Notes under the pieces: model-generated | Databases searched by the model: none | What the model was told of the DNA's origin: nothing | Seen by the model: the letters and a program-made list of their open reading frames with translations, nothing else | Assembly: GCA_011192005.1 (NCBI GenBank) | Contig: DUFB01000087.1 | Span: 1 to 34,480, forward strand | Reading direction: 5' to 3' | DNA from: Dehalococcoidia bacterium | GTDB lineage: Bacteria > Chloroflexota > Dehalococcoidia > Dehalococcoidales > RBG-16-60-22 | Length of the DNA stretch: 34,480 nucleotides | Position numbers and translations under genes: made by a program | Shown here: positions 9,342 through 26,954 of the stretch, piece by piece | How positions within the stretch are numbered: position 1 is the stretch's first letter | Layout of the letters: the number at the start of each line of letters is the position of its first letter

Positions 9342-10256
9342 ATGAATATCCTGGTTACCGGCGCTACCGGTTTTATCGGCTCTTACCTATGTCGGGAAAT
9401 GGTGCGGCGGGGCAATAATGTGTTTGCCCTGTCTCACTCCGGTAAAACTCAAAAAGTGCAGCAGCTTCTTCAGCATAAAAAATTCCACCTCCTCAACGGC
9501 GATATAGTCGATGCTGACATGATGACTGCTGTCATCAGGGATAATCATATCACGGATGTTTTCCATCTGGCGGCAAAGCTGCCCGATGGTAGCAGTCTCG
9601 CCGATTTACAGGCATACTTCGATACCAATACCAGGGGTACGTTTAACACGCTGGAGGCAGCCTGTCAAAATGACGTAACCAGATTCGTTTATGCCTCCAC
9701 CATGAGCGTCTATTCGGAACCTCCGCAGTATTTGCCCGTCGATGAGAGCCACCTCGCGTCCCCCCTGACGCCCTACGGCATTACCAAGCTGGCCGGGGAG
9801 CATATATGCAACATGTTCTCCGAACGCTTATCTCTCGTTATTTTGCGCTTCGGTGGGGTCTATGGCATGTATCAAAATGAGAGAGATGTCATGCCTGTTT
9901 TTATCAAGCAGGCTTTACATAGTCAGCTGATAACGGTGTATGGTAACGGTGAGCAGTCCACTGACTTTGTCCATGTTGATGACGTAATCAGCGGCACGCT
10001 TTTAGCCTGGGAGAAGGGTGAACCGGGAGTTTATAATCTCGCTTCCGGAGAGGAGACTCGCATCATTGATTTGGCGGAGAAAATCAGGAGTATAGCAGGC
10101 TCAAAATCTGAAATAACTCTGAGTAATAACAATACTGACAGGCCGTTCCGGTTTGTCCTGGATATCAGTAAAGCGCGCCAGGCTCTGGGGTGGTCGCCCC
10201 GACCCCTGGCTGAAGGCCTGACTGAATATATCAAGGAATATAAAGCTGAGGTATAA
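9342..10256 (+). CDS. NAD-dependent epimerase/dehydratase (GalE-like SDR)
   Basis: A 304-residue extended SDR. The Rossmann motif VTGATGFIGSYL lies at residues 5-16, then HLAAKLPD, ASTMSVYSEPP with the catalytic Ser, YGITK as the YxxxK pair, LRFGGVYG, and a STDFVHVDDV segment typical of UDP-sugar 4-epimerases. It most likely interconverts a UDP- or dTDP-sugar feeding the glycan assembled by the neighbouring transferases; exact substrate is unknown. An AGGAAG ribosome binding site sits at the usual spacing before the ATG. The next gene begins on the base after its stop codon (TAA then ATG), so the two SDRs are translated together and may act in sequence. A dehydratase or reductase function is not excluded. 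Confidence 0.85.
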   Translation: MNILVTGATGFIGSYLCREMVRRGNNVFALSHSGKTQKVQQLLQHKKFHLLNGDIVDADMMTAVIRDNHITDVFHLAAKLPDGSSLADLQAYFDTNTRGTFNTLEAACQNDVTRFVYASTMSVYSEPPQYLPVDESHLASPLTPYGITKLAGEHICNMFSERLSLVILRFGGVYGMYQNERDVMPVFIKQALHSQLITVYGNGEQSTDFVHVDDVISGTLLAWEKGEPGVYNLASGEETRIIDLAEKIRSIAGSKSEITLSNNNTDRPFRFVLDISKARQALGWSPRPLAEGLTEYIKEYKAEV

Positions 10257-11273
10257 ATGATAAAAGATAAAAGAGTTCTGATAACCGGTGGCGGTGGATT
10301 TCTCGGGGTTTCTCTGGCGGAGAGGCTGGTGAAGGATAACTATGTGGTCCTTCTGGATACGAATTTCGATAGAAACACCTTCGCCTATTCCGATCTTAAA
10401 GGAAATAAAAACATCGAGCTGGCTGAGGTTGATATTCTGGACGCGCCGGAGGTCTCCAGAGTCACTAAAGATGCTCAAATCGTCGTGCATATGGCGGCGA
10501 TGGTGGGCGTTCAGGAGGTTCTCAGTAACGCCCTCTACACCCTCGATGTCAACTACATAGGCACCTCCAATTTGCTCAAGGCTGTCTCTCAAAATCCCGG
10601 TTGCCAGCGCGTCGTCTGCTTTTCCACCAGCGAGGTCTTCGGCGCCGGTGCTTTCGGTATCGCCGAGGACGGCAATACCGTCCTTTCCTCGGTGCAGGAT
10701 GTCCGCTGGTGCTACTGCATCAGCAAGCTGGCATCGGAGCACCTCGCCCTCAGCTACTACCGGCAGCAGAACGTCCCCAGTGTGGTTATCCGTCCCTTTA
10801 ATATCTTCGGTCCCAAGCGGGTTGGCGACCACGTTGTGCTCAGGTTTGTTCTCAAAGCTCTGAAAAATGAGGACCTGGAGGTCTACGGCGACGGTACGCA
10901 AATCAGGGCCTGGTGCTACGTTGACGATTTTATCGATGCTTTGCTCCGCTGCCTGGAAGTTAAAGAGGCCATCGGGCAGGCTTTTAATATCGGTAATGCC
11001 CGCAATACCCTGACGATTTACGAGCTGGCTAAAAAGGTAATCTCTTTATGCAACTCGAAGTCGAAGATTATTTTCAAGGCGCTCGATTTCACCGATGTCG
11101 ATATCCGTGTGCCCAATATCGCTAAAGCCAGGGATATCCTGGGATATGAACCTAAAGTCGACCTGGAAGAAGGTCTTGCCAGGACGATTGATTGGGTCAG
11201 GCCCAACGCCGCTGAGCTCGAATCGCGTGTTACCACCGAGCGTCGTACCTATATCCCCGGAAAAGGTGAATAA
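10257..11273 (+). CDS. NAD-dependent epimerase/dehydratase (UDP-glucuronate decarboxylase/epimerase-like SDR)
   Basis: A 338-residue extended SDR with ITGGGGFLGVSLAERL at residues 9-24, STSEVFG as the serine region, and a WCYCISKLASEH segment holding YxxxK. The arrangement of Tyr-Ser-Lys before a SEHL helix, IRPFNIFGP and the WCYVDDFIDALLRCL segment resembles ArnA/UXS-type and GDP-sugar SDRs. I therefore think of decarboxylation or epimerisation of a nucleotide uronic acid, which would fit the two uronate-making dehydrogenases in the window, but this is only suggestive. It starts directly after the previous SDR stop and its own stop overlaps the transketolase start by one base. Confidence 0.83.
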   Translation: MIKDKRVLITGGGGFLGVSLAERLVKDNYVVLLDTNFDRNTFAYSDLKGNKNIELAEVDILDAPEVSRVTKDAQIVVHMAAMVGVQEVLSNALYTLDVNYIGTSNLLKAVSQNPGCQRVVCFSTSEVFGAGAFGIAEDGNTVLSSVQDVRWCYCISKLASEHLALSYYRQQNVPSVVIRPFNIFGPKRVGDHVVLRFVLKALKNEDLEVYGDGTQIRAWCYVDDFIDALLRCLEVKEAIGQAFNIGNARNTLTIYELAKKVISLCNSKSKIIFKALDFTDVDIRVPNIAKARDILGYEPKVDLEEGLARTIDWVRPNAAELESRVTTERRTYIPGKGE

Positions 11274-12094
11274 TGCCGGAAAATACAATCGACTATAAAG
11301 CGTTTTCCACTCGCATCCGTGCTCAGGTTTTAAGGATGGTGCACCGGGCTCAGAGTGGCCATCTCGGCAGCTCACTCTCCATCGCCGATATCCTGGCGGT
11401 GCTTTATGGCCGCATCCTCAATGTCGACCCCGCCCAGCCTGACTGGCCCGAGCGCGACCGCTTTATTTTAAGCAAGGGACACGCCGTCTCGGCTGTCTAT
11501 GTCGCCCTCGCCGAGCGCGGCTTTTTCCCCCGGGATTGGTTGCTTAATTACTACCTGAACGGCTCGCATCTTCCCGGCCACATAACCTACGGCGTACCCG
11601 GTGTTGAGGCCTCCGCCGGCGCCCTGGGGCACGGACTCCCCATCGGCTGCGGTATGGCGCTGGCGGCGAAGTGCGACGATAAGAAATACCGTGTTTACGT
11701 CATTCTCAGCGACGGTGACTGTGACGAAGGCTCCACCTGGGAAGCGTTGCTGTTCGCCCACCAGCATAAGCTGGACAATATCGTGGCTATCGTGGACTAC
11801 AACAAGATACAGGGCTTCGGCAGGACGAAAGAGGTCCTCGACCTCGACCCGCTGGCGGAGAAATGGCACTCTTTCGGATGGTCGGCGCGTGAAATCGACG
11901 GTCATGACCACCGGCAGATTGAGCAGGCTTTACTGGGAATACCCTTTGAGTCGGAAAGGCCGAGCTGCATCGTCGCCCATACTGTCAAGGGCAAGGGAGT
12001 CAGTTTCATGGAAGATGACGTCGCCTGGCATTACCGTTCGCCGGACGATAAACAGTTGCGGGAAGCTCTCGACGAACTGGGGGTGTCCGAGTGA
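11273..12094 (+). CDS. Transketolase, N-terminal (TPP-binding) subunit
   Basis: A 273-residue protein matching the first third of full-length transketolase. It has the H-x-G-HLGSSLSIADILAVLYG start, SKGHAVSA, the GALGHGLPIGCGMALA turn, and the thiamine-diphosphate motif SDGDCDEGS ending in VDYNK. Together with the following gene it forms a split transketolase, a layout common in archaea and many anaerobes. Ordinarily this enzyme moves two-carbon units between ketoses and aldoses. Its place inside the glycan operon, with 1-bp and 4-bp overlaps on either side, suggests a dedicated role such as making an unusual sugar or attaching a two-carbon branch; that is inference. It could equally be the housekeeping pentose-phosphate enzyme. 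Confidence 0.88.
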   Translation: MPENTIDYKAFSTRIRAQVLRMVHRAQSGHLGSSLSIADILAVLYGRILNVDPAQPDWPERDRFILSKGHAVSAVYVALAERGFFPRDWLLNYYLNGSHLPGHITYGVPGVEASAGALGHGLPIGCGMALAAKCDDKKYRVYVILSDGDCDEGSTWEALLFAHQHKLDNIVAIVDYNKIQGFGRTKEVLDLDPLAEKWHSFGWSAREIDGHDHRQIEQALLGIPFESERPSCIVAHTVKGKGVSFMEDDVAWHYRSPDDKQLREALDELGVSE

Positions 12095-13020
12095 GAAAGG
12101 CATTCGTTCAGGCCCTGATGGACATGGCTGGTGATGACGAGCGCATTCACCTTTTCGCCGGCGACCTAGGTTTTTCCATTTTTGAGCCTTTCATGGAGAA
12201 ATTCCCGTCCCGCTATATCAATATGGGTGTCGCCGAGCAGAATATGATTGGCGTGGCCACTGGCATGGCTCTGAGCGGCAAGATTGTCTTCGTCTATTCC
12301 ATCGCCAATTTCCCCACCTTCCGCTGCCTCGAGCAAATCCGCAACGATGTCTGTTACCACAACGTTAATGTGAATATCGTCATGGGTGGCGGGGGGTTGT
12401 CCTACGGGTCTCTGGGTGTCACCCACCATGCCACCGAGGACATGGCGTTGATGCGTGCCCTGCCCAACATGACGGTTATCGCTCCCGGCGACCCCTTGGA
12501 AGCTGAGCAGGCGACGCTGGCCTGCGCCTCCTGGCCCGGACCGTGCTATCTCCGACTCGGCAAAACCACCGAGCCCGGGGTCCACGAGTCGTTGCCGTCC
12601 TTCAGCATCGGCAGGGCTATCATGGTAAGGGATGGCAAGGACGCAACCCTAATTTCAACCGGATGCATGCTGTATAGCAATGTCCAGGCGGCTGAGATAT
12701 TAGCCGGACGGGGTATTTCCGCCCGCGTGCTCAGTATGCCCACGGTGAAGCCGCTGGACAGAGACGCCGTGCTGGCGGCTGCTGGCGAGACCGGCGTTAT
12801 CGTGACTGTTGAAGAACACAGTATCATCGGTGGACTGGGCAGTGCCGTCGCCGAGGTGCTTGCCGAAGCGTCCGGTATCGACTGTAAATTCCGTCGGATG
12901 GGTGTCAGGGACACTTTCACCCATGATGTCGGTAACCAGGAGTATCTGCTCAAAGCCCACGGTTTATCGGTGGGTGATATTGTTAATACTGTAATCGACT
13001 TGAAAAAAGAAGGTCGCTGA
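12091..13020 (+). CDS. Transketolase, C-terminal (pyrimidine-binding) subunit
   Basis: A 309-residue partner of the preceding gene. It covers the pyrimidine-binding domain (FAGDLG, then INMGVAEQNMIGVATGMAL with the Glu that activates thiamine diphosphate) and the C-terminal transketolase domain (ATLISTGCMLYSNVQAAEIL, VTVEEHSIIGGLGSAVAEVL). The start is GTG inside the GTGA overlap with the N-terminal subunit, so the two chains are made in step. DXS-like and pyruvate-dehydrogenase E1 beta proteins share this fold, but the split size and partner favour transketolase. Its stop overlaps the methyltransferase start by one base. Confidence 0.88.
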   Translation: MRKAFVQALMDMAGDDERIHLFAGDLGFSIFEPFMEKFPSRYINMGVAEQNMIGVATGMALSGKIVFVYSIANFPTFRCLEQIRNDVCYHNVNVNIVMGGGGLSYGSLGVTHHATEDMALMRALPNMTVIAPGDPLEAEQATLACASWPGPCYLRLGKTTEPGVHESLPSFSIGRAIMVRDGKDATLISTGCMLYSNVQAAEILAGRGISARVLSMPTVKPLDRDAVLAAAGETGVIVTVEEHSIIGGLGSAVAEVLAEASGIDCKFRRMGVRDTFTHDVGNQEYLLKAHGLSVGDIVNTVIDLKKEGR

Positions 13021-13853
13021 TGCCCCTGACCGGAGCGCAATCGATACTGAAGAAACTGCTGCCGGGTAAGATTTTCCGGTTCGTCTATAACCTGGCTTCG
13101 GGCTGCTACGTGCTGTGGGTAAAGACCCTGGACGAGCTGTATTACTTCTTCGCTCATATCTACTACCTGTTGGCGAACGACCGCGAGAGACTTGCCAAGA
13201 TAAAAAGGATTAAGAAGATAAGAAAATATTCGATGGTCGGCCGGACCGGCCTCTTCAGGACTCACGATATCGCCGCCGCGATGGAAAAAGAGAAGGTTGA
13301 CGGTTGTTTCGTCGAGTGCGGTGTTGCCCGCGGCGGGTGTTCGGCTCTCATGGCGATGGTTGCCGTTGACCATGACAGTAATAGAAAGCTCTGGCTTTTC
13401 GATTCTTTCGAAGGCCTGAGCGAGCCCACCGCAGAGGACGAGTATCAGGAGTCTCTCCGGTATAAACCCGGCAACCGGTCGTCCGACCTCGTTGCGCCGG
13501 GATATTGCCTGGGTACGTATGAGGAGGTGGAAAGCCTTCTTTTCTCGAACCTTGGGTTGAGTCGCGATAATATTGCCCTGGTTAAGGGCTGGTTCCAGGA
13601 TACCCTGCCGGAGTTTCGCCGTAAGACCGGGCCCATCGCCGTCCTGCGCATAGATGGCGACTGGTATGAATCGACCAGGTGCTGTCTGGAAAATCTTTAC
13701 GATAACGTCGTATCCGGAGGCAGCGTTATTATTGATGACTACGAATCGTATGTCGGGGCTAAAAAAGCCACCGATGAATTTATTGAAAGTCGGAGTATTA
13801 AAACTGAGTTGAGCTTTGACGGTCGTGGCGGCTGCTATTTTACCAAGCCCTGA
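13020..13853 (+). CDS. TylF/MycF-like SAM-dependent sugar O-methyltransferase
   Basis: A 277-residue protein whose residues about 75-275 match the TylF (macrocin O-methyltransferase) family: FVECGVARGGCSALMA is the SAM-binding loop, LWLFDSFEGLSEP the next strand with its acidic residue, then VKGWFQDTLPEF, and VLRIDGDWYESTRCCLENLYD with the metal-binding DGD, followed by VIIDDYES. In macrolide pathways such enzymes O-methylate deoxysugars in a Mg2+-dependent way. Here it probably methylates a sugar of the surface glycan. The first about 70 residues are hydrophobic and basic and are not part of the core fold; they may bind the membrane near lipid-linked substrates. It overlaps the transketolase stop by one base. 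Confidence 0.85.
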   Translation: MPLTGAQSILKKLLPGKIFRFVYNLASGCYVLWVKTLDELYYFFAHIYYLLANDRERLAKIKRIKKIRKYSMVGRTGLFRTHDIAAAMEKEKVDGCFVECGVARGGCSALMAMVAVDHDSNRKLWLFDSFEGLSEPTAEDEYQESLRYKPGNRSSDLVAPGYCLGTYEEVESLLFSNLGLSRDNIALVKGWFQDTLPEFRRKTGPIAVLRIDGDWYESTRCCLENLYDNVVSGGSVIIDDYESYVGAKKATDEFIESRSIKTELSFDGRGGCYFTKP

Positions 13854-13891
13854 CTGTCGTTTGTCAGCACGGAAAAAGGGAGACTGTTCGG

Positions 13892-15097
13892 TTGAAAAAA
13901 GTCCTCATCATAGCACGCTATTTCGGTACCCGCATCCCGGCTCTGGTAAAGTACCTGCCCGGGTTCGGGTGGCAGCCCGTTCTCCTCACGACCGCTCTGC
14001 CGCCGGATAGCGATATGCCGCCTGAAATAGCCGTTATCGAGACGGGTAGCCGGACGGAAAGTCATTTTGCCCCTGCTGCCGGCCGGTCTATCCTCGACCG
14101 TTTTCTCGCTGTAGGCGGTGAAATCGTCAATTACCCCGATTCTTACAAAGGCTGGAAAGACTCTGCTATCAGGGCGGGAGATGATTTATTGAGGAAAGAT
14201 AATTTCGATGCCGTCATCAGCAGTTCTTCGCCGATAACTGCCCATCTCATCGCCGGTGAGTTAAAAAGCAGGCACGGACTTCCCTGGCTCGCCGACCTCC
14301 GCGACCTCTGGTCACAGAACCATAACTACTACTATAGCCCTTTAAGAAGGGCATTTGATAGAAGGCTGGAACACAAGACACTCTCGGCAGCTGACGCTCT
14401 CGTTACCGTGTCTCGTCCCTGGGCGGACAGACTCGCCAAGCTTCATCCGGGAAAGAAAATATATGCCATCACCAACGGCTACGACGCGGACATGACGAGT
14501 GTAACTCCGTCCGCGTTGACTTCTAAATTCACCGTCAGCTACACAGGCAATATTTACCGCGGTAAGCAAAGCCCCGCCAGACTCTTTACTCCTCTACGAA
14601 GTCTTATCTCTGAAGGTGCCATCACCCCGGATGATGTCGAGGTGAGGTTTTACGGCCCCGCGCTGGCATGGCTGGATAAAGAGATAAATAAAGCTGAACT
14701 GTCGGGTATCGTCAGGCAGTACGGCACGGTATCCCGGCAGGTTGCCGTCGAGAAACAGAGGGAGTCGCAAGTATTATGGCTCATGGACTGGGACGACCCC
14801 ACCGAGGACGGCTGGTATCCGCTCAAAATCTTTGAATATCTCGGGACGGGAAGGCCCGTCCTGGCTACGGGAGGCGCGGCGGGTAGCGCTGTCGACAGGT
14901 TGCTTGCAGCAACTAAAGGCGGCGTGCATGCCATTACGGTAGAGGATATAAAAAATACTCTCAGGGATTTATATAATGAATATAAGTTAAAAGGAGAAGT
15001 ATCCTGTTACGGTCTCCGGGAGGAAATCGGCAAGTACACCCACCGGGAAATGACCGGTAGATTTGTTACTGTCCTCGAAGGACTCCTGGAACGTTAG
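13892..15097 (+). CDS. Glycosyltransferase, GT4/GT-B type
   Basis: A 401-residue GT-B protein. The N-terminal half carries KKVLIIARYFGTRIPALVKYLPGFGW and a LADLRDLWSQNHNYY segment seen in WbuB-like/GT4 enzymes. The C-terminal half has VSYTGNIYRGKQSP, FYGP, and a donor-binding region (PLKIFEYLGTGRPVLATGG) in which the second acidic residue of the usual E-x7-E is not clear. The start is TTG at 13892, chosen because AAGGGAG lies just upstream and the Rossmann strand begins at once. It probably adds a sugar to the growing lipid-linked glycan. Directly downstream is the ABC flippase gene (gap 15 nt). Confidence 0.82.
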   Translation: MKKVLIIARYFGTRIPALVKYLPGFGWQPVLLTTALPPDSDMPPEIAVIETGSRTESHFAPAAGRSILDRFLAVGGEIVNYPDSYKGWKDSAIRAGDDLLRKDNFDAVISSSSPITAHLIAGELKSRHGLPWLADLRDLWSQNHNYYYSPLRRAFDRRLEHKTLSAADALVTVSRPWADRLAKLHPGKKIYAITNGYDADMTSVTPSALTSKFTVSYTGNIYRGKQSPARLFTPLRSLISEGAITPDDVEVRFYGPALAWLDKEINKAELSGIVRQYGTVSRQVAVEKQRESQVLWLMDWDDPTEDGWYPLKIFEYLGTGRPVLATGGAAGSAVDRLLAATKGGVHAITVEDIKNTLRDLYNEYKLKGEVSCYGLREEIGKYTHREMTGRFVTVLEGLLER

Positions 15098-15112
15098 ACC
15101 TGGTGAAAAAGG

Positions 15113-16912
15113 ATGGCAATAAAAGGTAGTTTCCATATTATACGTTATCTGCTGCGGCATGACAGGCTGCGGTTCGCCCGGGTTCTCTTACTCTCGCTGG
15201 TAACCGGCATCCTCGAGGCGGTCAATATCGCCGCTATCTATCCCATTCTTACCGCGGCGTTCGTCGATGGCGCCGGCGATTCTGGTATCATCAGTTCCAT
15301 GTTCGCCAGGCTGGCTGACCTCCTGCCTTTTGAGAATCAATTTATCAGCTATTGTGTCGTCTTCCTTATTATCACTGTATTGACCTTTATCTCCAGGATT
15401 ATCTTTATCAATTACCGGGTCAAGTTCGCTACCCGGCTGGTCCAGAGAAACCAGGAAGAAATATTTGATAAATATATGAAGGCGGATTACCAACACTTTA
15501 TTGACCACCAGCAGGGCGAGCTTATCTACAACGTCGTCACCGGCCCTAATCAGATCGCTCTCCTGGTCAGTTCAGTCACCGAGCTATTGCAGCAGGCTAT
15601 TATCTCCATAACTGTCCTGATTTTCCTGTTTTCGCTGTCCTGGGTAGGGGCGCTCGTGGTTATCGTCATCGCCATCGGGTATCATTTTCTCACTCGGTTT
15701 ATCGGCAGAAGAGTAGCCTATTATTCCGCGGCCGGCGAGCGCGAAGCGAACCGTGAGACTAACATTATCCTCAACGAGGTTATTACCGGCATCAAGCAGG
15801 TCAAGGTATATAACACCACTCTCGACTGGATAAGAAGGTTCAATAATGTCATCAGGAGACGCTGGGCGTACTACATCCGGAGGAATTTCTGGCAGAATGT
15901 GCCCGTTCCTTTCCTATTCCTGGTGCTGTATCTGGCTATCGGCGTCATTGCCCTTCTCATCAGTATTATGGCGCCCCTGACCTTTACGGAGTTAATCCCG
16001 ATTTACGGCACCTTCGGCTTTGCCATCTTCCGACTCTTTACCATGGTGGGCACGATGGGCACCTATTTCGTGCAGTTTATGAGCACCCTCCCCGATTGCG
16101 AAGCTATATATTCCATCCAGCACGAGAAAATAAGTACCATCGAGGATGGCAGCAGGGAGTTCAGCTCGTTTAACTCGGGTATCCGGTTCGAGGACGTTAA
16201 CTTCTCATACCAGGGCCGCACCAAGACCCTCAGGGATATCTCGGTAAGCTTTGAGAAGGGTAAAACGGTGGCTATCGTCGGGCGTTCCGGTTCGGGCAAG
16301 ACGACTATCGTCAGCCTCATACTGCGCCTGTTTCAGCCTGATGCTGGCGCTGTATTGATTGATGGCGTCGAATTAAAAGAGTACCGCCTATCTTCGTTGC
16401 TGGACAGGATAGGCTATGTTGACCAGGATACGTTTATCTTTAATGACACGGTACGGAACAATATCACCCTGCGCTCTGAAAAATACTCGGACGAGGAAGT
16501 CTTCAGGGCGGCTGGTTATGCCGACGCCCACGATTTCATCACCGATTTGCCGCAGGGTTACGATACCCAGGTGGGTGACAAGGGCGTCAGGCTCTCGGGT
16601 GGGCAGAAACAGCGTATTGCCGTCGCCCGGGCGATGATAAGGCAGCCGGATATTTTAATCTTTGACGAGGCCACCAACGCCCTCGATAGCGTCTCCGAGG
16701 CCGCCGTTCAGAAGGCTATCGACGAGATATCGAGAGACCACACCGTTATCATCATCGCCCACCGTCTTTCGACCGTTGTTAACGCCGATAAGATAATCGT
16801 CATGGTGGGGGGCAGAATCGCCGAAGAGGGCACGCACCGCGAGCTGTTGAACAACAGGAAAGAGTACTGGCAGCTTTACCAGGGACAGGTACGTTCGGAC
16901 GAATCAGTATGA
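15113..16912 (+). CDS. ABC transporter, fused permease-ATPase (PglK/MsbA-like lipid-oligosaccharide flippase)
   Basis: A 599-residue half-transporter with about six membrane segments in residues 20-330 and an ATPase domain after about residue 360. The Walker A motif is GRSGSGKTT, the Q-loop is in YVDQDTFIF, the signature is LSGGQKQR, Walker B is ILIFDEAT, and the switch His is in IIAHRLSTV. As last gene of the glycan operon next to an oligosaccharyltransferase, the best reading is a homodimeric flippase moving lipid-linked glycan from the inner to the outer face, as PglK does in Campylobacter. MsbA-like lipid or drug export has the same architecture and cannot be excluded. It converges on the ugd gene, with 30 nt between the stops. 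Confidence 0.87.
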   Translation: MAIKGSFHIIRYLLRHDRLRFARVLLLSLVTGILEAVNIAAIYPILTAAFVDGAGDSGIISSMFARLADLLPFENQFISYCVVFLIITVLTFISRIIFINYRVKFATRLVQRNQEEIFDKYMKADYQHFIDHQQGELIYNVVTGPNQIALLVSSVTELLQQAIISITVLIFLFSLSWVGALVVIVIAIGYHFLTRFIGRRVAYYSAAGEREANRETNIILNEVITGIKQVKVYNTTLDWIRRFNNVIRRRWAYYIRRNFWQNVPVPFLFLVLYLAIGVIALLISIMAPLTFTELIPIYGTFGFAIFRLFTMVGTMGTYFVQFMSTLPDCEAIYSIQHEKISTIEDGSREFSSFNSGIRFEDVNFSYQGRTKTLRDISVSFEKGKTVAIVGRSGSGKTTIVSLILRLFQPDAGAVLIDGVELKEYRLSSLLDRIGYVDQDTFIFNDTVRNNITLRSEKYSDEEVFRAAGYADAHDFITDLPQGYDTQVGDKGVRLSGGQKQRIAVARAMIRQPDILIFDEATNALDSVSEAAVQKAIDEISRDHTVIIIAHRLSTVVNADKIIVMVGGRIAEEGTHRELLNNRKEYWQLYQGQVRSDESV

Positions 16913-16919
16913 TTTCCCA

Positions 16920-16935
16920 CGCGCCTGTTAGCGCG
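16920..16935. terminator. Weak hairpin between convergent genes
   Basis: CGCGC and GCGCG flank a 6-nt loop in the 30-nt gap between two convergent stop codons. There is no T-run on either strand, so a bidirectional terminator role is only suggested by position. Confidence 0.3.
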
Positions 16936-16942
16936 GTATTTG

Positions 16943-18193
16943 CTACCAGCATACCCCTTCGTATATCCGGGCTTCTCTGGCTTTCTCGATTCTCCTGCCG
17001 TCGATGACGATTTTACCACGGTAATCGAGTTCCATGAATTCTTCCCACTCGGTCAGGATAATCACCGCGTCGCTGTCTAGGACCTCCTCTTTACTGGCGG
17101 GCAATACCTGGGGACATGTCTTTATAAAATTAGCTACTGCCAGCGGGTCGTAAACTTTTACCATGGCTCCCTCGGCCAGCAGTGCCTCCGCTACTTTTAT
17201 CGCTCGGGAATCCCTGATGTCGTCGGTACCCGGCTTGAATGCCAGACCAAGAATCCCCACCGTGGCACCCTGCAGCTTGATGTGTTTTTTCAGCAGTTCC
17301 ACCGGCTTTAACGCCTGGTTTTCGTTCAGGTTGGATACCTCCCGCAGCAGCTCGGGCTGGTATCCTGTTTCTCTGGCGCCCGATATCAGTATTCTCAGGT
17401 CCTTGGGCAGGCAGGAGCCGCCGAAGCCGATGCCAGCGTTAAGAAATTTATTGCCGATGCGCTCGTCGAGTCCCATGCCGCGGGCGACTTCGTAGGTGTC
17501 TATCCCCAGCTTCTTGCAGATGTTGCCTATCTCGTTGATAAACGAAATCTTCGTCGCCAGGAAGGCGTTTGATGCCAGCTTTATCATCTCCGCCGTGCGC
17601 AGGCTGGCGCGCATTACCGGTGCTTTCAGGCTCTGGTGCAGTCGTTCCAGCACGTCTCCCGACCGACCATCGTATTCCCCGATGATAATCCGCGATGGAT
17701 TCATGAAGTGATAGATACCCCGCCCCTCCTGGAGAAATTCGGGGGACATGCAAATGCCGAAGTCTTTCCCCGCTTTCCTGCCCGATTTCTCCAGCAGGGG
17801 TATGACCAGACTTTCCGTCATACCGGGCCCCACGGTACTCTTGACGGCCACGACGCAGTATTTTTGCTGCTTTTTCAATACTCCGGCAATATCGTTAGCG
17901 GCGTTTATGAGGTGTTCCGAGAATATGTTTCCGTTTTCGTCGGCGGTCGTGCCGACACAGACAAAAATCACATCCGAATCCACAGTCTTGCCGTAGTCAG
18001 TGCTGGTATCTATATGTACTTCTTCCAGGAGCTCCTGGAGTCCTTCCTCGTGGATGGGAAGGTCTTCTTTTTTGGCGATGGTCGCCAGTTTATCTGCGTC
18101 GATATCAATCAGGACGACGTCGTGCCCCAGTTTGGCGAAGCAAGCGCCACTGATAAGACCGACGTATCCGGCACCGATTATGGAGATTTTCAT
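16943..18193 (-). CDS. ugd: UDP-glucose 6-dehydrogenase
   Basis: A 416-residue enzyme oxidising UDP-glucose to UDP-glucuronate with two NAD+. It has ISIIGAGYVGLISGACFAKLG at the N-terminus, VCVGTT, VKSTVGPG, EFLQEG, the conserved Lys in EMIKLASNAF (about 205) and the catalytic Cys261 in GFGGSCLPKD, which is the Ugd form rather than the WecC form at 2709. The C-terminal domain has LAFKPGTDDIRDSRA. A strong GGGAGGG ribosome binding site precedes the ATG. It is the last gene of a minus-strand set behind the DrrAB-like transporter (37-nt gap). The product could feed the UXS-like SDR at 10257 or the same glycan; that link is inferred. Confidence 0.92.
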   Translation of the reverse strand: MKISIIGAGYVGLISGACFAKLGHDVVLIDIDADKLATIAKKEDLPIHEEGLQELLEEVHIDTSTDYGKTVDSDVIFVCVGTTADENGNIFSEHLINAANDIAGVLKKQQKYCVVAVKSTVGPGMTESLVIPLLEKSGRKAGKDFGICMSPEFLQEGRGIYHFMNPSRIIIGEYDGRSGDVLERLHQSLKAPVMRASLRTAEMIKLASNAFLATKISFINEIGNICKKLGIDTYEVARGMGLDERIGNKFLNAGIGFGGSCLPKDLRILISGARETGYQPELLREVSNLNENQALKPVELLKKHIKLQGATVGILGLAFKPGTDDIRDSRAIKVAEALLAEGAMVKVYDPLAVANFIKTCPQVLPASKEEVLDSDAVIILTEWEEFMELDYRGKIVIDGRRIEKAREARIYEGVCW

Positions 18194-21368: not shown

Positions 21369-22760
21369 TCAGGAGCCGGTAATTATATTGAATGACAGGG
21401 TATAAGCACCCCCAATAAGAGACATATCTCTTACCATGATAATGTATTTTCCAGTCTCGGGAAGGACCTGGTCTGTTTGGACTGATTTGTTCCAGTGAAA
21501 ATCATAATCCTCGAAGATTAAGCTGCCGTCAGGGGCTACCAGAGTCAGCCAGGGATTTAAAAGACCGTCTTCGCTATCGACCAGACCCAGGTACACTGTA
21601 TCCCCGGCTTTGCCGTCGAATTCGAACCAGTGGACTGCTCCGCGGAAATCAAGGTTCCCCTGGATTGAGCCAGGTGTTATCGGTTGCACGGTTTGTGATA
21701 GCAGTGAAAAAGATAGTACATAGGGACCTGTTCCCAGGGCCTCATCTCTTATTCTTATAGAATAGCTTCCGTCCTGTTCCAGCCACCTGAATACTTGGAC
21801 CGAGCGTCCCCAGCTGAAATCGTAATCCTCCCAGACCATACTCCCGTCAGGGGCGAGCAGTCCCATCCACGGCACGAACGGGCCGTTTTCTGTATCATCG
21901 ATTAGAACGATGTATATCGCGTCACCGGCCTGGGCATCGAAAGTATACCAATGTACCTCTCCGGAGAAAGTTATCTCTCCCTGTATCGAGGTCCCGGACT
22001 GAAGTGTGCTTCCGATGAGTGATTTCCCGGATGACGTTGTCGTCGGGCCTGCTGTCGTTGTTACTCCTGCCGTTGTTGTTCCTGGTGTGACTGGTGGTGT
22101 TGTTGTCGATGTTGATGTTTCTCCTTGCGTCGTCGGTGTGGTTGCTGGCGTTGTCGTCGGACCGGACGCCAGCCCGTTGGTATCTTCGCCATCCCCGGAA
22201 CCTCCCACCGTCAGGATTATCACCACTACTATCACGGCTACCACAACAATTCCTGCCGTCACCCACAGTCTCGTTCGTTTTTTCTCTGTTGTGGTTCTGG
22301 TTTCTGGCTTGGAAGCTTCTTTCTTCTCCTCATCTCCCTCCTCATGTGGTTTCTCGAGTTCCGCCAGCAGGGTCTGTACTGTGTCGGCGAGTTTACGCAG
22401 GTGCTTTTCGAGGGGTGGGGTAATGGCGTCGAGCCAGTGAAGAGCGCTGAGGTAGTATTTTATGGCTTTGGAAGGTAGCACATTTTCGATACGGAATGGG
22501 ATGATGGGGATGCCCGTATCTACGGCTCTCTCGACTTCCCTCATTACCTGCGGTGAATCATTGGAGTTGGAGGAAAACACCAGCACCATGATTCTGCTCT
22601 CGTTTATAGCGTTGATAAGGGCTTCAGCGTAGGGAATACCGGATAGAACGTCCCGGGGGGCAATCCAGCAGCGGATCTTACGGTGTTCGAGTGTGGCGCA
22701 TACGGCGTCGGCTACTTTTTTGTCCTTTGATGAATAGCTGATAAAAACGTCGTGCGCCAT
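21369..22760 (-). CDS. Membrane-anchored TIR-domain protein with two PPC-like domains
   Basis: A 463-residue protein in four parts. Residues 1-135 are a TIR domain (HDVFISYSSKDK start, IRCWIAPRD box 2, VLVFSSNSNDSPQVMREVE with Glu75 where NAD-cleaving TIRs have their catalytic Glu). Residues 136-164 are a charged, basic stretch; 165-185 one membrane helix; 194-246 a Thr/Pro-rich linker. Residues 251-353 and 364-459 are two similar beta domains (each with VHW-(Y/F), AGD, APDGS, EDYDF-x-W and SxSI/YIIMVRD) resembling bacterial pre-peptidase C-terminal (PPC) domains. With KKRTR before the helix, TIR should face the cytoplasm and PPC the outside. The layout suggests a sensor that reports an outside signal to a TIR effector. 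AAGGGTG precedes the ATG. Function is inferred. Confidence 0.85.
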   Translation of the reverse strand: MAHDVFISYSSKDKKVADAVCATLEHRKIRCWIAPRDVLSGIPYAEALINAINESRIMVLVFSSNSNDSPQVMREVERAVDTGIPIIPFRIENVLPSKAIKYYLSALHWLDAITPPLEKHLRKLADTVQTLLAELEKPHEEGDEEKKEASKPETRTTTEKKRTRLWVTAGIVVVAVIVVVIILTVGGSGDGEDTNGLASGPTTTPATTPTTQGETSTSTTTPPVTPGTTTAGVTTTAGPTTTSSGKSLIGSTLQSGTSIQGEITFSGEVHWYTFDAQAGDAIYIVLIDDTENGPFVPWMGLLAPDGSMVWEDYDFSWGRSVQVFRWLEQDGSYSIRIRDEALGTGPYVLSFSLLSQTVQPITPGSIQGNLDFRGAVHWFEFDGKAGDTVYLGLVDSEDGLLNPWLTLVAPDGSLIFEDYDFHWNKSVQTDQVLPETGKYIIMVRDMSLIGGAYTLSFNIITGS

Positions 22761-23020: not shown

Positions 23021-24271
23021 TTGACGACACAACCAGCAACCAAAAAGCATTCGTTCTTATTTTCCGCACTCCCATTTTTTATCTTCGCGCATGCTGCTCA
23101 TCATTTCTTAATGGCTCTCCAGCAGCCATTGTTCCCGGCGATTCGTGATTATTTTAAAATCGGGACTTATTTCGAGGCTTCTGCTGTTCCGGCTGCTTTC
23201 GCTTTCGCCAGCGCTACCGGACAGCTGCCGGCCGGATGGTTCGCCGACCGCTTCGGGCCCACGCCTTTGATTATCATCGGCACGCTCGGCGTGGCTGTAG
23301 CCGGTGTACTCGTCGGGATTTCTCCCAACTTCATTATGCTGCTTGTTTTTCTTATCCTTATGGGTCTCCTTTCCGGGGGTTATCATCCTGCCGCCACCCC
23401 GCTTATTTCTGCTTCGGTCGACCCGCAAATACGCGGTCGGGCGCTTGGACTTCACCTTATAGGTGGTAACGCTGCCTTCTTCGTGTCACCGATTATCGCC
23501 GGGGCTATACTAGGCGCTTTTGGAGAGGAATCCGGTTGGCGTTATTCGTACCTTATCCTGGCAATACCGACGGTCGTGTTCGGTTTGATTTTCCTGGTTT
23601 ATTTATCTAGGCGTGGCGGTAGTGCCCATGTAAAGGCGGTAAAGCAGCAGATTATCGTGGAAAAACCCCCGCAGCCCGGCTACAAGCGGCGTCTCATTGC
23701 CTTCCTCACCATGATGGTAATCGGTGGCGGTATCGGTATGTCGGTGCTGCCTTTCCTTACCCTGTATATGACGGATATACTGAAAGCATCCAACGCAACG
23801 GCCGGGGGGCTGATGTCCATTGTGTTTTCCTCTGGTCTCTGGGCGGGACCCCTCGGCGGTTATATCTCCGATAAAATCGGTAGTGTCAAGGTGATAATAG
23901 TAACCGGTATCTTGGGCGGGGTATTGATTTATATCTTTAAGCTGGTCACTTTAGGCCCCACGCTCTATATCTTGTTGTTTTTCCACGGTCTGGTCATGGC
24001 GATTCGCATGCCCGTGACCGAGGTTTTCATCATGACCCAGGCGCCTGCCAAGCACCGCTCCAAAATTTTCGGGGTATATTATTCCACGATGCAGTACACC
24101 GGAGCTATCTTCGCCATACCGGGTGGGTATTTCGTGGAGAGGTTCGGATTTGACACTATGTTCACCTGGGCGGCGGTCGGTGTAACCGCCGTGGCGATAA
24201 TTACGGCATTCTTTATCTTCGATGCCAATGACCACTACCACGCCGAAGCAGACAGTGCTGGCGGCGGTTAA
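23021..24271 (+). CDS. MFS transporter
   Basis: A 416-residue major-facilitator transporter with about 12 membrane segments. Motif A is GWFADRFGPT after helix 2 and its echo GGYISDKIGS follows helix 8; GGYHPAATP ends helix 4. It is a paralogue of the protein at 20114 and the two flank the TIR gene. TTG at 23021 is the start because GAAAGG lies 5 nt upstream, and the sequence then runs into helix 1 (LFSALPFFIFAHAAHH) after a short polar N-terminus. Two palindromes in its leader suggest regulation by a repressor. Its stop codon overlaps the sbcD stop on the other strand by 4 bp. Substrate cannot be told from sequence; drug, sugar or acid efflux are all possible. Confidence 0.88.
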   Translation: MTTQPATKKHSFLFSALPFFIFAHAAHHFLMALQQPLFPAIRDYFKIGTYFEASAVPAAFAFASATGQLPAGWFADRFGPTPLIIIGTLGVAVAGVLVGISPNFIMLLVFLILMGLLSGGYHPAATPLISASVDPQIRGRALGLHLIGGNAAFFVSPIIAGAILGAFGEESGWRYSYLILAIPTVVFGLIFLVYLSRRGGSAHVKAVKQQIIVEKPPQPGYKRRLIAFLTMMVIGGGIGMSVLPFLTLYMTDILKASNATAGGLMSIVFSSGLWAGPLGGYISDKIGSVKVIIVTGILGGVLIYIFKLVTLGPTLYILLFFHGLVMAIRMPVTEVFIMTQAPAKHRSKIFGVYYSTMQYTGAIFAIPGGYFVERFGFDTMFTWAAVGVTAVAIITAFFIFDANDHYHAEADSAGGG

Positions 24272-25500
24272 CCTTCCTGAAGCTCCTCTATCAGCTTCTT
24301 GCCGTATTCCAGCAATATCCTCTGTCTCTCTGCCGGAACTTTTTTAGATTCAAGGTAGGCTTTAAGGGCGTCGGTGGGCTTTATCTCCTCGGCGGTACGG
24401 TTACCCATTCTGAGTCGTGTTTCCCGCTGCACGTCCTGCGCGACCGTATAGTAATGGGCTTCCTTCAATGCTTCGCGGATGGCGGTGTCACTCACCTGAC
24501 TGGCTATCTGCGACGGCACACTGATATTCAAGCGCACGATGGCGTCTTTAACTTTCTCCCGCTGTCCAACTATTGCGTTCTGTAGCGTAACCGACGGATT
24601 AATATCGTCCTCCTCAAGCATAACGTTGACGGTAAGAAAACGCCGTGCGTTAACCGGATGAAATTCGTAGGTTGTTTTCCTGCCACCAGTGGGAGTCTCT
24701 ATCTCGACCACGTAAAAACCCTTCTCGTCGTTCTCTTCCCCGAAGTCGACCCGTTCCAGACTGCCCGAGTAGACCACCGGGGGGCTCTCGCTGAGCACCT
24801 GACGCTTGTGGATATGCCCCAGCGCCACGTAATCGTAGGCCGGCAGGGCGACGTTGCTGAGCAGCAGCGTATGCTCCTGCCCGATGGACATCATGCTCTC
24901 CGAACCTACCTTGGCACCGGTTACCCAGACATGTGCCGCCAGTACCGCCGGCAGCGTTGGGTCGAGCTTATTGGTAAGATTATCGACGATATTCGTCAGG
25001 GTCTCCTGGAGTTTCCGGTTTATCTGCTCCAGGCTCAGGTTCCTGGTATCGTCACGACTGAGCAAAGCACTCCGCCTCAGCCAGGGCAGGGCTGCTATTT
25101 GTATCGTACCGTCGGCCGTCTTGATGGTGTGGATATCCGGTCTGTTGGCTACGCAGACATTCTTTACTGCCAGCGTATCGAATATCTCGGTGGCGGTAGC
25201 TCGCCCGACGGCATTGGGCATGTCGTGATTGCCAGTGAGCAGGAAAACAGGTACGCCGTTGCTCGCCAACCGGTTGATGCGCCTGGCAAACTCCCGCTGC
25301 TGGGTCTGGGTCGGCTCCCGTGTTTTATAGGCGTCGCCGCAGAACAGGACGAGGTCGACCTTGTTCTCCAGCGCGTAATCCACGAGCTGGTCCAGAGCCG
25401 AAAGAAAATCATTGAGCCGCGAGGAAAGCCCGGTGGCTGGGTCAATCCGGCCGTAATTTTCCACGCCGAGGTGCAGGTCAGCAAAATGTATTATTTTCAC
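24268..25500 (-). CDS. sbcD: SbcD/Mre11-type DNA exonuclease subunit
   Basis: A 410-residue calcineurin-like phosphoesterase of the SbcD/Mre11 family, which cuts DNA ends and hairpins with its ATPase partner SbcC/Rad50. Metal-binding motifs appear in order: FADLHLG at residues 6-12, FCGDAYKT, LLTGNHDMP, AAHVWVTG and ALGHIHKRQ. After about residue 285 comes the capping/DNA-binding domain with two further regions. No sbcC gene is in the window, although the two are usually adjacent. The ATG overlaps the preceding selenoprotein gene by 4 bp (ATGA-type), so it is the last gene of the glyS operon. A general metallophosphoesterase is the alternative, but the length and C-terminal region favour SbcD. 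Confidence 0.88.
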   Translation of the reverse strand: MKIIHFADLHLGVENYGRIDPATGLSSRLNDFLSALDQLVDYALENKVDLVLFCGDAYKTREPTQTQQREFARRINRLASNGVPVFLLTGNHDMPNAVGRATATEIFDTLAVKNVCVANRPDIHTIKTADGTIQIAALPWLRRSALLSRDDTRNLSLEQINRKLQETLTNIVDNLTNKLDPTLPAVLAAHVWVTGAKVGSESMMSIGQEHTLLLSNVALPAYDYVALGHIHKRQVLSESPPVVYSGSLERVDFGEENDEKGFYVVEIETPTGGRKTTYEFHPVNARRFLTVNVMLEEDDINPSVTLQNAIVGQREKVKDAIVRLNISVPSQIASQVSDTAIREALKEAHYYTVAQDVQRETRLRMGNRTAEEIKPTDALKAYLESKKVPAERQRILLEYGKKLIEELQEG

Positions 25501-26249
25501 TCCGCTTTCACTTTCTTATGATTTATGACCGCTTCTAGGTAAGCCGCGATCAGCGGGTGGGGATTACTTTCCTCGGAGCTTAGCTGCGGCTGGTAAGCGG
25601 TGGCTATATAGAAGGTACGGTCGGGCAGCTCTATGATGCTGGTAATCCTGTTTTCGGTTGTCCCGCTTATCTTTACGCCGCGTTTTTCCAGTATCTCTTT
25701 ATACCCTGGGTTCATCTCGAAGTTGCATGAGTATGGCTCAACGATTTCGTCCTGACGGTAAATCCTGTATGCCAGTGAACCGGGCTTTACATTTATTTTA
25801 ATATTGCCCCAGAGCCGGGGCGTTCCTTCCGGTCTGCTCGCTACGGGACATGAAGCCAGTATGAACAGCGGATTTGATATATTCGGATCGTATTCCTGGT
25901 GTCCGATGTCCTCATCGCCGATGACGTTCATCATATACTCTAACAGAGCGTGCTGGTAGCCCCCTCAGGTGCCGATGAGGGGAAGGTTCGCCTCCCTGAC
26001 ACTGCGGATTCCCCTGATGGCACCCGCCATGCTCCTGTAAGGACTGCCCGGGCTTATCAGGAAGCCATCGTGCTTTCTGATTCGCTCCTCGCTGGCGTCG
26101 ATGAGGAAAGACGGCGTCGGCAGCCAGGTTATATTAGTAACGACACCAAGTCTCTTCGCGGCATGGTTCAGTGCCCGGTTCGTCGCCTGGTGCGAGGGCT
26201 TGCTTTTGTCATAATCCCCGATAATGCCGATGTTTAATTCCTGGCTCAT
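25497..26249 (-). CDS. CTP-synthase-C-terminal-like selenoprotein with in-frame UGA (Sec95)
   Basis: One 250-residue reading frame interrupted by UGA at 25967-25965. Residues 1-94 (IGIIGDYDKS, then LISPGSPYRSM) and 96-250 (GGYQHALLEY, PGSLAYRIY, CNFEMNPGYKEILE, NPHPLIAAYLEA) line up with the glutamine-amidotransferase domain of CTP synthase, lacking the synthase half. The UGA falls at the nucleophile position: ...LPLIGT-U-GGYQH. The frame stays intact on both sides. Databases use the name CTP synthase C-terminal region-related (seleno)protein for such a family. Residues 220-222 read QPQ where glutaminases have His-Pro-Glu, so amide hydrolysis is unlikely and redox or other chemistry is possible. 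Start 26249 has AAGGGG upstream. A pseudogene with a nonsense mutation is the alternative. Confidence 0.85.
25937..25949 (-). promoter_or_regulatory. Putative bacterial SECIS hairpin after the UGA
   Basis: Downstream of the UGA the mRNA can form a stem GCUCU/AGAGU (one G-U pair) closing the loop GUU. The loop G is 21 nt after the UGA, within the about 16-37 nt window known for bacterial SECIS, with G first in the loop. The stem is short, so support is moderate. Confidence 0.55.
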
Positions 26250-26264: not shown

Positions 26265-26954
26265 TTATTTTACCAGATTCAGCACTTCCCGCAAGCGGGT
26301 AATCCTGGGACCGTCCCAGTCGTCCTCCCGTTCCATGACCACTTCATCGACCGTTTCGTCGGTGTGCCGGATCAGTACCGCTTGCATCCCCACTGCTCTC
26401 GCCCCGGTGAGTTCATGGCTGCTCCCATCGCCGACGTACAGGCAGTCCTCGGGTTTTATTCCCATCCGGTCGGTAGCCATTTTATAGATACGCGGGTCGG
26501 GCTTTTTCATGTTGACCTCGCAGGAGAAAATAGTTACATCAAAATATGGGGTGAAAGCAGTGCCCGGCCAGGCTTTTGGGGTCTCCGGGGAACAATCGCT
26601 GATAAGCCCCAGCTTTAAGCCCTGCTTCCGCAGTCTGGTCAATACCTGGACTGCTTCCGGCTTGGGTTTGAGGGAAAGTACCGTGTACTCCAGCCGTATA
26701 TCTGCGGCGTGCTGAGACTGCTCTTCGGTGACCGCCACGTCCAGGTCCTGGCAGATGATGCGGATGCTGTCTTCGTGAGTGAGGTGGGTGCCGTTAACGC
26801 GTTGGGTAAAATAGCCGCGCCAGAGTCTGGCAAAACCCTCCGCAGGTGCGTTGAGGACAGCGGCCATGTTCTCCAGTATTTTGGAGTATTCGGACATGGT
26901 GAAGTTATCCACCAGTGTCCCGAAAAGGTCGAACAACACTGCTTTGTATCTCAT
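26265..26954 (-). CDS. HAD-superfamily hydrolase (copy 1)
   Basis: A 229-residue haloacid-dehalogenase-like hydrolase. Motif I is VLFDLFGTLV with nucleophile Asp9; the acid/base Asp usually two residues later is Phe, as in haloacid dehalogenase-like and REG-2-like members, not in typical phosphatases. A helical cap follows (about 15-95), then LISDCS (motif II), MKKPDPRIY with the Lys (motif III) and YVGDGSSHELTGA (motif IV). Activity could be dehalogenation or phosphate-ester hydrolysis; nothing in the sequence decides this. It is a close tandem paralogue of the next gene upstream, 3 nt away, and precedes the selenoprotein gene by 15 nt in the glyS operon. Confidence 0.87.
   Translation of the reverse strand: MRYKAVLFDLFGTLVDNFTMSEYSKILENMAAVLNAPAEGFARLWRGYFTQRVNGTHLTHEDSIRIICQDLDVAVTEEQSQHAADIRLEYTVLSLKPKPEAVQVLTRLRKQGLKLGLISDCSPETPKAWPGTAFTPYFDVTIFSCEVNMKKPDPRIYKMATDRMGIKPEDCLYVGDGSSHELTGARAVGMQAVLIRHTDETVDEVVMEREDDWDGPRITRLREVLNLVK

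Follow-up and report, generated by a model that had tools for sequence, protein, structure and literature searches.

A likely selenoprotein of a Dehalococcoidia genome with the predicted fold, but very probably not the activity, of the CTP synthase glutaminase domain

We analyzed a 34,480-nucleotide stretch of DNA (the window) from a Dehalococcoidia bacterium of the phylum Chloroflexota (GenBank assembly GCA_011192005.1, contig DUFB01000087.1) and found a gene, interrupted by a single in-frame UGA codon, that is best explained as encoding a true selenoprotein: a retired glutaminase scaffold that likely serves as a selenol/thiol enzyme. The gene adds a divergent member to a predicted selenoprotein family that has already been published. 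Specifically, the deep-Sep study of 2025 predicted the family as a new selenoprotein in Desulfosediminicola ganghwensis under the name "glutamine amidotransferase (COG0504, PyrG)" (PMC12013277), and a 2026 review lists the family model NF004836 with the motif GxUxG (PMC13188914). The words "triad" and "histidine" are absent from the main text of the former, and the passage of the review that concerns the family does not discuss the triad. An earlier reading of the window, made from the sequence alone and without knowledge of these publications, had rightly held that a (seleno)protein family name is known but not what the family does; the name is that of NF004836, and our literature search found no functional study of this family.

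The gene begins with an ATG at 26249 and runs on the minus strand to a TGA stop at 25499-25497 (Table 1). Its 251 codons consist of 250 sense-frame residues and this stop, and the only stop codon inside the frame is the TGA at codon 95, in the residue context LIGT-U-GGYQHALLEY. Mechanical open reading frame calling cuts the frame into two pieces, at 25965-26249 (94 amino acids) and 25497-25934 (145 amino acids), as mechanical gene finding still does with selenocysteine (Sec) genes of this kind. The sequence-only reading, which did not give the strand, was right that this is one 251-codon frame with a UGA at codon 95, that gene calling splits it, and that conserved sequence flanks the context GT-U-GGYQHALLEY on both sides.

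Table 1. Coordinates of the Sec gene, its predicted elements and its immediate neighbors in the window
Feature	Position	Strand	Basis
Predicted Sec-containing protein resembling the CTP synthase glutaminase domain, 250 aa plus stop	25497..26249	-	NF004836 match, AlphaFold2 model, PDB matches
UGA codon 95, predicted Sec at the nucleophile elbow	25965..25967	-	TGA/Cys column, alignment with E. coli PyrG C379, model
Presumed SECIS hairpin	25934..25952	-	Core CTCT-GTT-AGAG (25938-25948), whose apical GTT loop lies 20 nt downstream of the UGA; motif common to Sec homologues
Cys134, near-invariant (100/104), absent from CTP synthase	25848..25850	-	Family alignment
Cys175, near-invariant (101/104), at the position of E. 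coli PyrG H469, beside the lost R470 (N176)	25725..25727	-	Family alignment
Q220-P221-Q222, where CTP synthases carry the catalytic H-P-E	25584..25592	-	Family columns; E. coli H515/E517
SbcD/Mre11-type nuclease subunit	24268..25500	-	TIGR00619, E = 1.4e-49; start (GTG) overlapping the Sec gene's stop
HAD-family hydrolase, upstream neighbor	26265..26954	-	Domain match

To place the read-through protein, we compared it with family models and known structures. With C substituted for U, it matched NCBIfam NF004836 over residues 6-241 (profile positions 2-227 of 228, E = 3.2e-70), and because this match spans the whole length of the protein, the UGA does not stand there by chance. The score of 235.8 bits lies under the curated cut-off of 260, which marks a divergent relative rather than an equivalog match. 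CTP synthase models matched more weakly than NF004836, and Pfam assigned the protein to GATase. The AlphaFold2 model (pLDDT 94.4, pTM 0.91), least confident in the Cys134 loop, places residue 95 between a strand (91-94) and a helix (96-110), which is the nucleophile elbow. The best PDB matches of this model were CTP synthase glutaminase domains, among them human CTPS2 (2vkt, TM-score 0.86/0.85, the value by target being 0.85), and the sequence search agreed; we are confident in assigning the model to the glutaminase-domain fold of CTP synthase. At 250 residues the protein comprises the glutaminase-like part alone, without an N-terminal synthase domain. Since the same genome also encodes a separate, full-length CTP synthase in which the RHRFE and FHPE motifs are intact, the Sec protein is not the glutaminase part of that genome's CTP synthase.

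We then collected homologues spanning the UGA, a check that the sequence-only reading had proposed. In a class-level search (393 genomes), TGA occupied this codon in each of the six sequences ranked next after the window gene; a phylum-level search (400 genomes) added three more TGA members, along with others that have Cys. Scanning 84,980 species genomes added members in Acidobacteriota, Bacillota, Thermodesulfobacteriota, Myxococcota, Rokubacteria, and Verrucomicrobiota. In the contig scan, a single-sequence query gave no match and a query alignment recovered members; viral contigs yielded two distant Cys relatives and no others. Column 95 of the resulting 104-row alignment holds Cys in 77 rows and Sec in 27, with no other residue, and after removal of duplicates it is TGA in 25 genes (the window gene included) and Cys in 76, again with nothing else. 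The in-frame UGA thus stands opposite a Cys in homologues, with sequence conserved on both sides. The 24 further non-redundant UGA homologues come from Chloroflexota, Thermodesulfobacteriota, Myxococcota, Rokubacteria, and Acidobacteriota, and recurrence of the same TGA in independent genomes of five phyla excludes a sequencing error in practice.

Among genomes with a Sec member, selA was above cut-off in 22 of 25; one more carries a split copy, and the other two have a tRNA-Sec above cut-off. Of the Cys-member genomes tested, 18 of 28 contain selA. One Sec-type gene with TGA (L064) lies in a genome (G477) that is 95% complete and has tRNA-Sec without a clear selA. Two Klebsiella pneumoniae plasmid records (L081 and L083) carry a free-standing 230-residue Cys homologue, labeled "CTP synthase", that adjoins DUF523 and DUF488 genes; a Sec form of DUF523 was reported by the deep-Sep study (PMC12013277).

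The source genome (2.13 Mb in 108 contigs, about 80% complete) encodes all four components of bacterial Sec synthesis and insertion, selA, selB, selC and selD, for which the earlier reading had also suggested looking. Specifically, a tRNA-Sec was found above the Rfam cut-off (73.4 bits) and called by ARAGORN as tRNA-SeC with anticodon TCA, and matches above cut-off were obtained for selB (353.5 bits), selA (564.4 bits), and selD (400.7 bits). The genes selC, selB, and selA share one contig (C75). The selD gene has its own in-frame UGA at the known place (GSGUACK), making it a second Sec gene in this genome; it lies on contig C69 (minus strand of locus L018, 1501-2427), and hairpin-forming sequence follows its UGA.

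The machinery also bears on the idea that UGA is generally read as Trp or Gly in the source organism, with no Sec insertion. An in-frame UGA is what such a reassignment would produce, but the sequence evidence is strongly contrary: tRNA-Sec, SelA, SelB, and SelD are all present, relatives without the UGA always have Cys in its place, and the gene holds one internal TGA in 250 codons and itself terminates with TGA, the ordinary stop role of this codon in the genome. We regard general reassignment as exceedingly improbable.

Next, we asked whether the RNA downstream of the UGA carries a Sec insertion signal. Of the 25 Sec genes, 21 have TTA or GTA as the eighth codon after the UGA, as against 2.1 expected from the codon use of the same genes (P about 1e-22, a value that ignores relatedness); just 1 of the 76 Cys genes does. 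This excess indicates that selection acts on a SECIS element in the RNA itself. The TTA/GTA codon sits within the motif CTCTG[T/G]TAGAG, which in most Sec genes forms an eight-pair hairpin with the loop GTT or GGT 20 nucleotides after the UGA; the eight-pair stem was present in six of the nine other Sec genes that we folded. Published criteria for a bacterial SECIS call for a loop 16-37 nucleotides after the UGA, a G in the first two loop positions, and a stem of at least four pairs at -7.5 kcal/mol or below (PMC13188914), and the hairpin of the Sec genes fits these rules. In the window the hairpin is weak: its five-pair stem consists of the CTCT/AGAG core and one G-U pair, its apical part reaches -4.0 kcal/mol versus -8.5 kcal/mol in typical relatives, and an unconstrained fold of 63 nucleotides prefers other pairing in which the hairpin is absent. 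RNAalifold found no consensus structure on a 42-nucleotide alignment, and an Rfam scan of the window gave no match. Covariation on the named helix was mild (its score was reached in 10 of 500 shuffles), which may be expected because the hairpin RNA also encodes conserved residues.

Taken with the Cys/Sec alternation, the machinery, and the selected hairpin, codon 95 is almost certainly read as Sec, as the sequence-only reading had it; SelB and tRNA-Sec would decode the UGA under the direction of the hairpin whose loop lies 20 nucleotides downstream. The opposing view is that the UGA is a true stop, whether in a pseudogene, between two genes or through a sequencing error, and that no full-length protein is made. 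Gene callers do split the frame and the local hairpin is weak in the source genome, but 25 non-redundant genes from several phyla have the UGA at this very codon and the other homologues have Cys, the protein is conserved on both sides of it, Sec machinery is present, and the eighth codon after the UGA is constrained to TTA/GTA. A true stop is very improbable on these grounds.

To examine what the protein could do, we aligned it to E. coli PyrG, in which C379, H515, and E517 form the triad and Q383, E403, and R470 the glutamine pocket, R470 gripping the glutamine carboxylate. Sec95 aligns with C379, which bears out the earlier placement of the UGA at the nucleophile position of glutamine amidotransferases, and Q99 and E119 align with Q383 and E403. 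H515, E517, and R470 are replaced by Q220, Q222, and N176, respectively. Across the 104 rows, column 220 is Gln in 87, Leu in 15, Val in 2, and His in none; column 222 is Gln in 87 and Glu in 17; and the R470 position is Asn or Ser in the window protein and the ten members compared. The other glutamine-pocket residues are retained (Q99 in 100 of 104 rows, E119 in 95 of 104). With the triad His and Glu and the Arg replaced, Sec95 does not belong to a Cys-His-Glu glutaminase triad and the canonical glutaminase mechanism is unavailable to the protein. Judged from these columns, the Sec protein is very probably not a canonical glutaminase, and the label "amidotransferase" in the sequence-only reading is not supported.

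It could still be a working glutamine amidotransferase or hydrolase if Sec stood in for Cys, another base (for example H20, H100, H117, or H231) stood in for the triad His, and ammonia passed to some acceptor. The conserved nucleophile elbow, the retained equivalents of Q383 and E403, and the published name, glutamine amidotransferase (PMC12013277), speak for such a protein. Against it, the equivalents of H515 and R470 are lost and that of E517 is replaced in 87 of 104 rows, the GG oxyanion stretch has become PG, the candidate His residues in the middle of the protein are variable (H117 and H100 each in 48 of 104), and no synthase partner was found adjoining the gene in relatives. We consider this activity improbable. 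As a replacement catalytic His, H117 had looked attractive because it was invariant among 19 sequences, and the larger set led us to reject it. Co-variation of residue 220 with Sec was likewise dropped: Leu or Val occurs there in 15 of 25 Sec genes versus 1 of 76 Cys genes, and independent pairs on the tree gave no support beyond shared ancestry.

In place of the lost residues, the family has two near-invariant cysteines (Table 1). The three rows without Cys175 are without Cys134 as well, and all three keep Cys95; this joint absence hints that the two cysteines act together. A Sec or Cys at position 95 of the nucleophile elbow, along with two conserved cysteines, suggests selenol/thiol chemistry with a resolving cysteine. 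We propose that the protein descends from the glutaminase domain of CTP synthase as a stand-alone form, in which the fold, the elbow, and the Q383/E403 equivalents would have been kept, the catalytic His, the triad Glu, and the Arg that grips the substrate would have disappeared, and Cys134 and Cys175 would be new. Such a protein would most likely not hydrolyze glutamine. Its Sec95 selenol (a thiol in Cys members) would probably be the reactive nucleophile, probably pairing with a cysteine, with Cys175 and/or Cys134 as the candidate resolving partner in a reductase- or peroxidase-like cycle. That the chemistry is of this redox or thiol-exchange kind is a plausible proposal from residue conservation that we hold tentatively. 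No conserved gene neighbor backing a redox role emerged across 92 other loci.

An alternative without catalysis is a regulator or sensor in which oxidation or modification of the Sec/Cys would alter the binding of a partner. By analogy, DJ-1-like proteins retain a nucleophile-elbow Cys without a full triad, and the Sec protein likewise has a nucleophile without a triad, in scattered gene neighborhoods with no pathway partner. However, retention of the costly Sec in five phyla argues for turnover chemistry, and the near-invariant Cys134 and Cys175 suggest a catalytic cycle; we think such a regulator unlikely, and a selenol/thiol enzyme remains our preferred reading.

Next, we characterized the family by its phylogeny. 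A maximum-likelihood tree separated 101 family rows from two CTP synthases with a split support of 100/100, in a bootstrap that had not fully settled, and the window protein grouped with members above the 260-bit cut-off, the CTP synthases falling outside. At least six Sec-Cys exchanges are needed on this tree. One row, L164, has Cys in column 95, and its Sec label on the tree stems from a stop elsewhere in its read. The acidobacterial Sec genes L107, L143, and L158 are nested in a well-supported Cys clade and have the same CTCTGGTAGAG hairpin motif; their placement may reflect repeated loss of an ancient Sec, transfer, or a return from Cys to Sec. A broader and still more tentative possibility, somewhat doubtful as it stands, is that the entire NF004836 clade left glutamine chemistry and became a selenol/thiol enzyme whose active site, newly formed, combines Sec/Cys95, Cys134, and Cys175; Sec would be ancient in the clade and repeatedly swapped with Cys.

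To determine if the surroundings point to a pathway, we carried out a gene neighborhood analysis. In the window the gene order is glyS - PNP - HAD - HAD - Sec gene - sbcD, and we rejected its reading as a nucleotide-metabolism operon because relatives carry glyS and sbcD without the Sec gene. Among the relatives examined, which belong to the same family and order, glyS remains linked to sbcD while the genes lying between the two vary; the nearest relative by sbcD (75% identity) has glyS - HAD - HAD - sbcD. The Sec gene is thus a lineage-specific insertion, and its neighbors should not be taken as pathway partners. Across the 92 other loci, no neighbor was convincingly common to several phyla; recurrent ones (a GIDE-domain protein, LemA, kynureninase, an amino acid permease, an F420-type protein, and SelR) mainly reflect synteny within an Acidobacteriota clade. 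Elsewhere in the window, a gene at 21369-22760 (minus strand) encodes an N-terminal TIR and a C-terminal bacterial pre-peptidase (PPC) domain, an unusual pairing that is possibly defense-related. An STT3/AglB-type oligosaccharyltransferase gene at 5502-7910 (plus strand) is followed downstream, around 9342-18193, by epimerase, glycosyltransferase, ABC transporter, and UDP-sugar dehydrogenase genes, a possible N-glycosylation cluster in a Chloroflexota genome.

These results suggest that the family's amidotransferase label is probably wrong about chemistry. They also offer a positive argument, drawn from the RNA, that Sec is inserted in members of several phyla, and they single out residues 95, 134, 175, and 220 for testing. 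If the redox reading is true, the protein would be a new enzyme type in a superfamily thought to do ammonia chemistry; to our knowledge, a selenol/thiol reaction type is not known in the class I amidotransferase superfamily.

Finally, we compared the Sec gene and its product with the systems that they most resemble. Like other bacterial selenoproteins that depend on SelB and a bacterial SECIS, the gene combines a UGA with SelA, SelB, SelC, and SelD and a presumed SECIS hairpin whose loop opens with G 20 nucleotides after the UGA; in this family, by contrast, the hairpin lies in sequence that encodes the conserved LLEY/LVEY, and it is short in the window genome. With NF004836 / PRK06186 (CTP synthase C-terminal region-related (seleno)protein) the protein shares the same domain end to end, the GT-U-GG context, the Sec position, and widespread Cys homologues, but it scores below that model's cut-off (235.8 versus 260 bits), and the loop from Cys134 to residue 146 is longer in the Chloroflexota set to which it belongs. 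CTP synthase (PyrG) has, in its glutaminase domain, the fold predicted for the Sec protein, the same nucleophile position, and the residues Q383 and E403 that have equivalents there, whereas the Sec protein stands without a synthase domain, has the His, Glu, and Arg470 replaced, carries two new conserved cysteines, and bears Sec in place of Cys.
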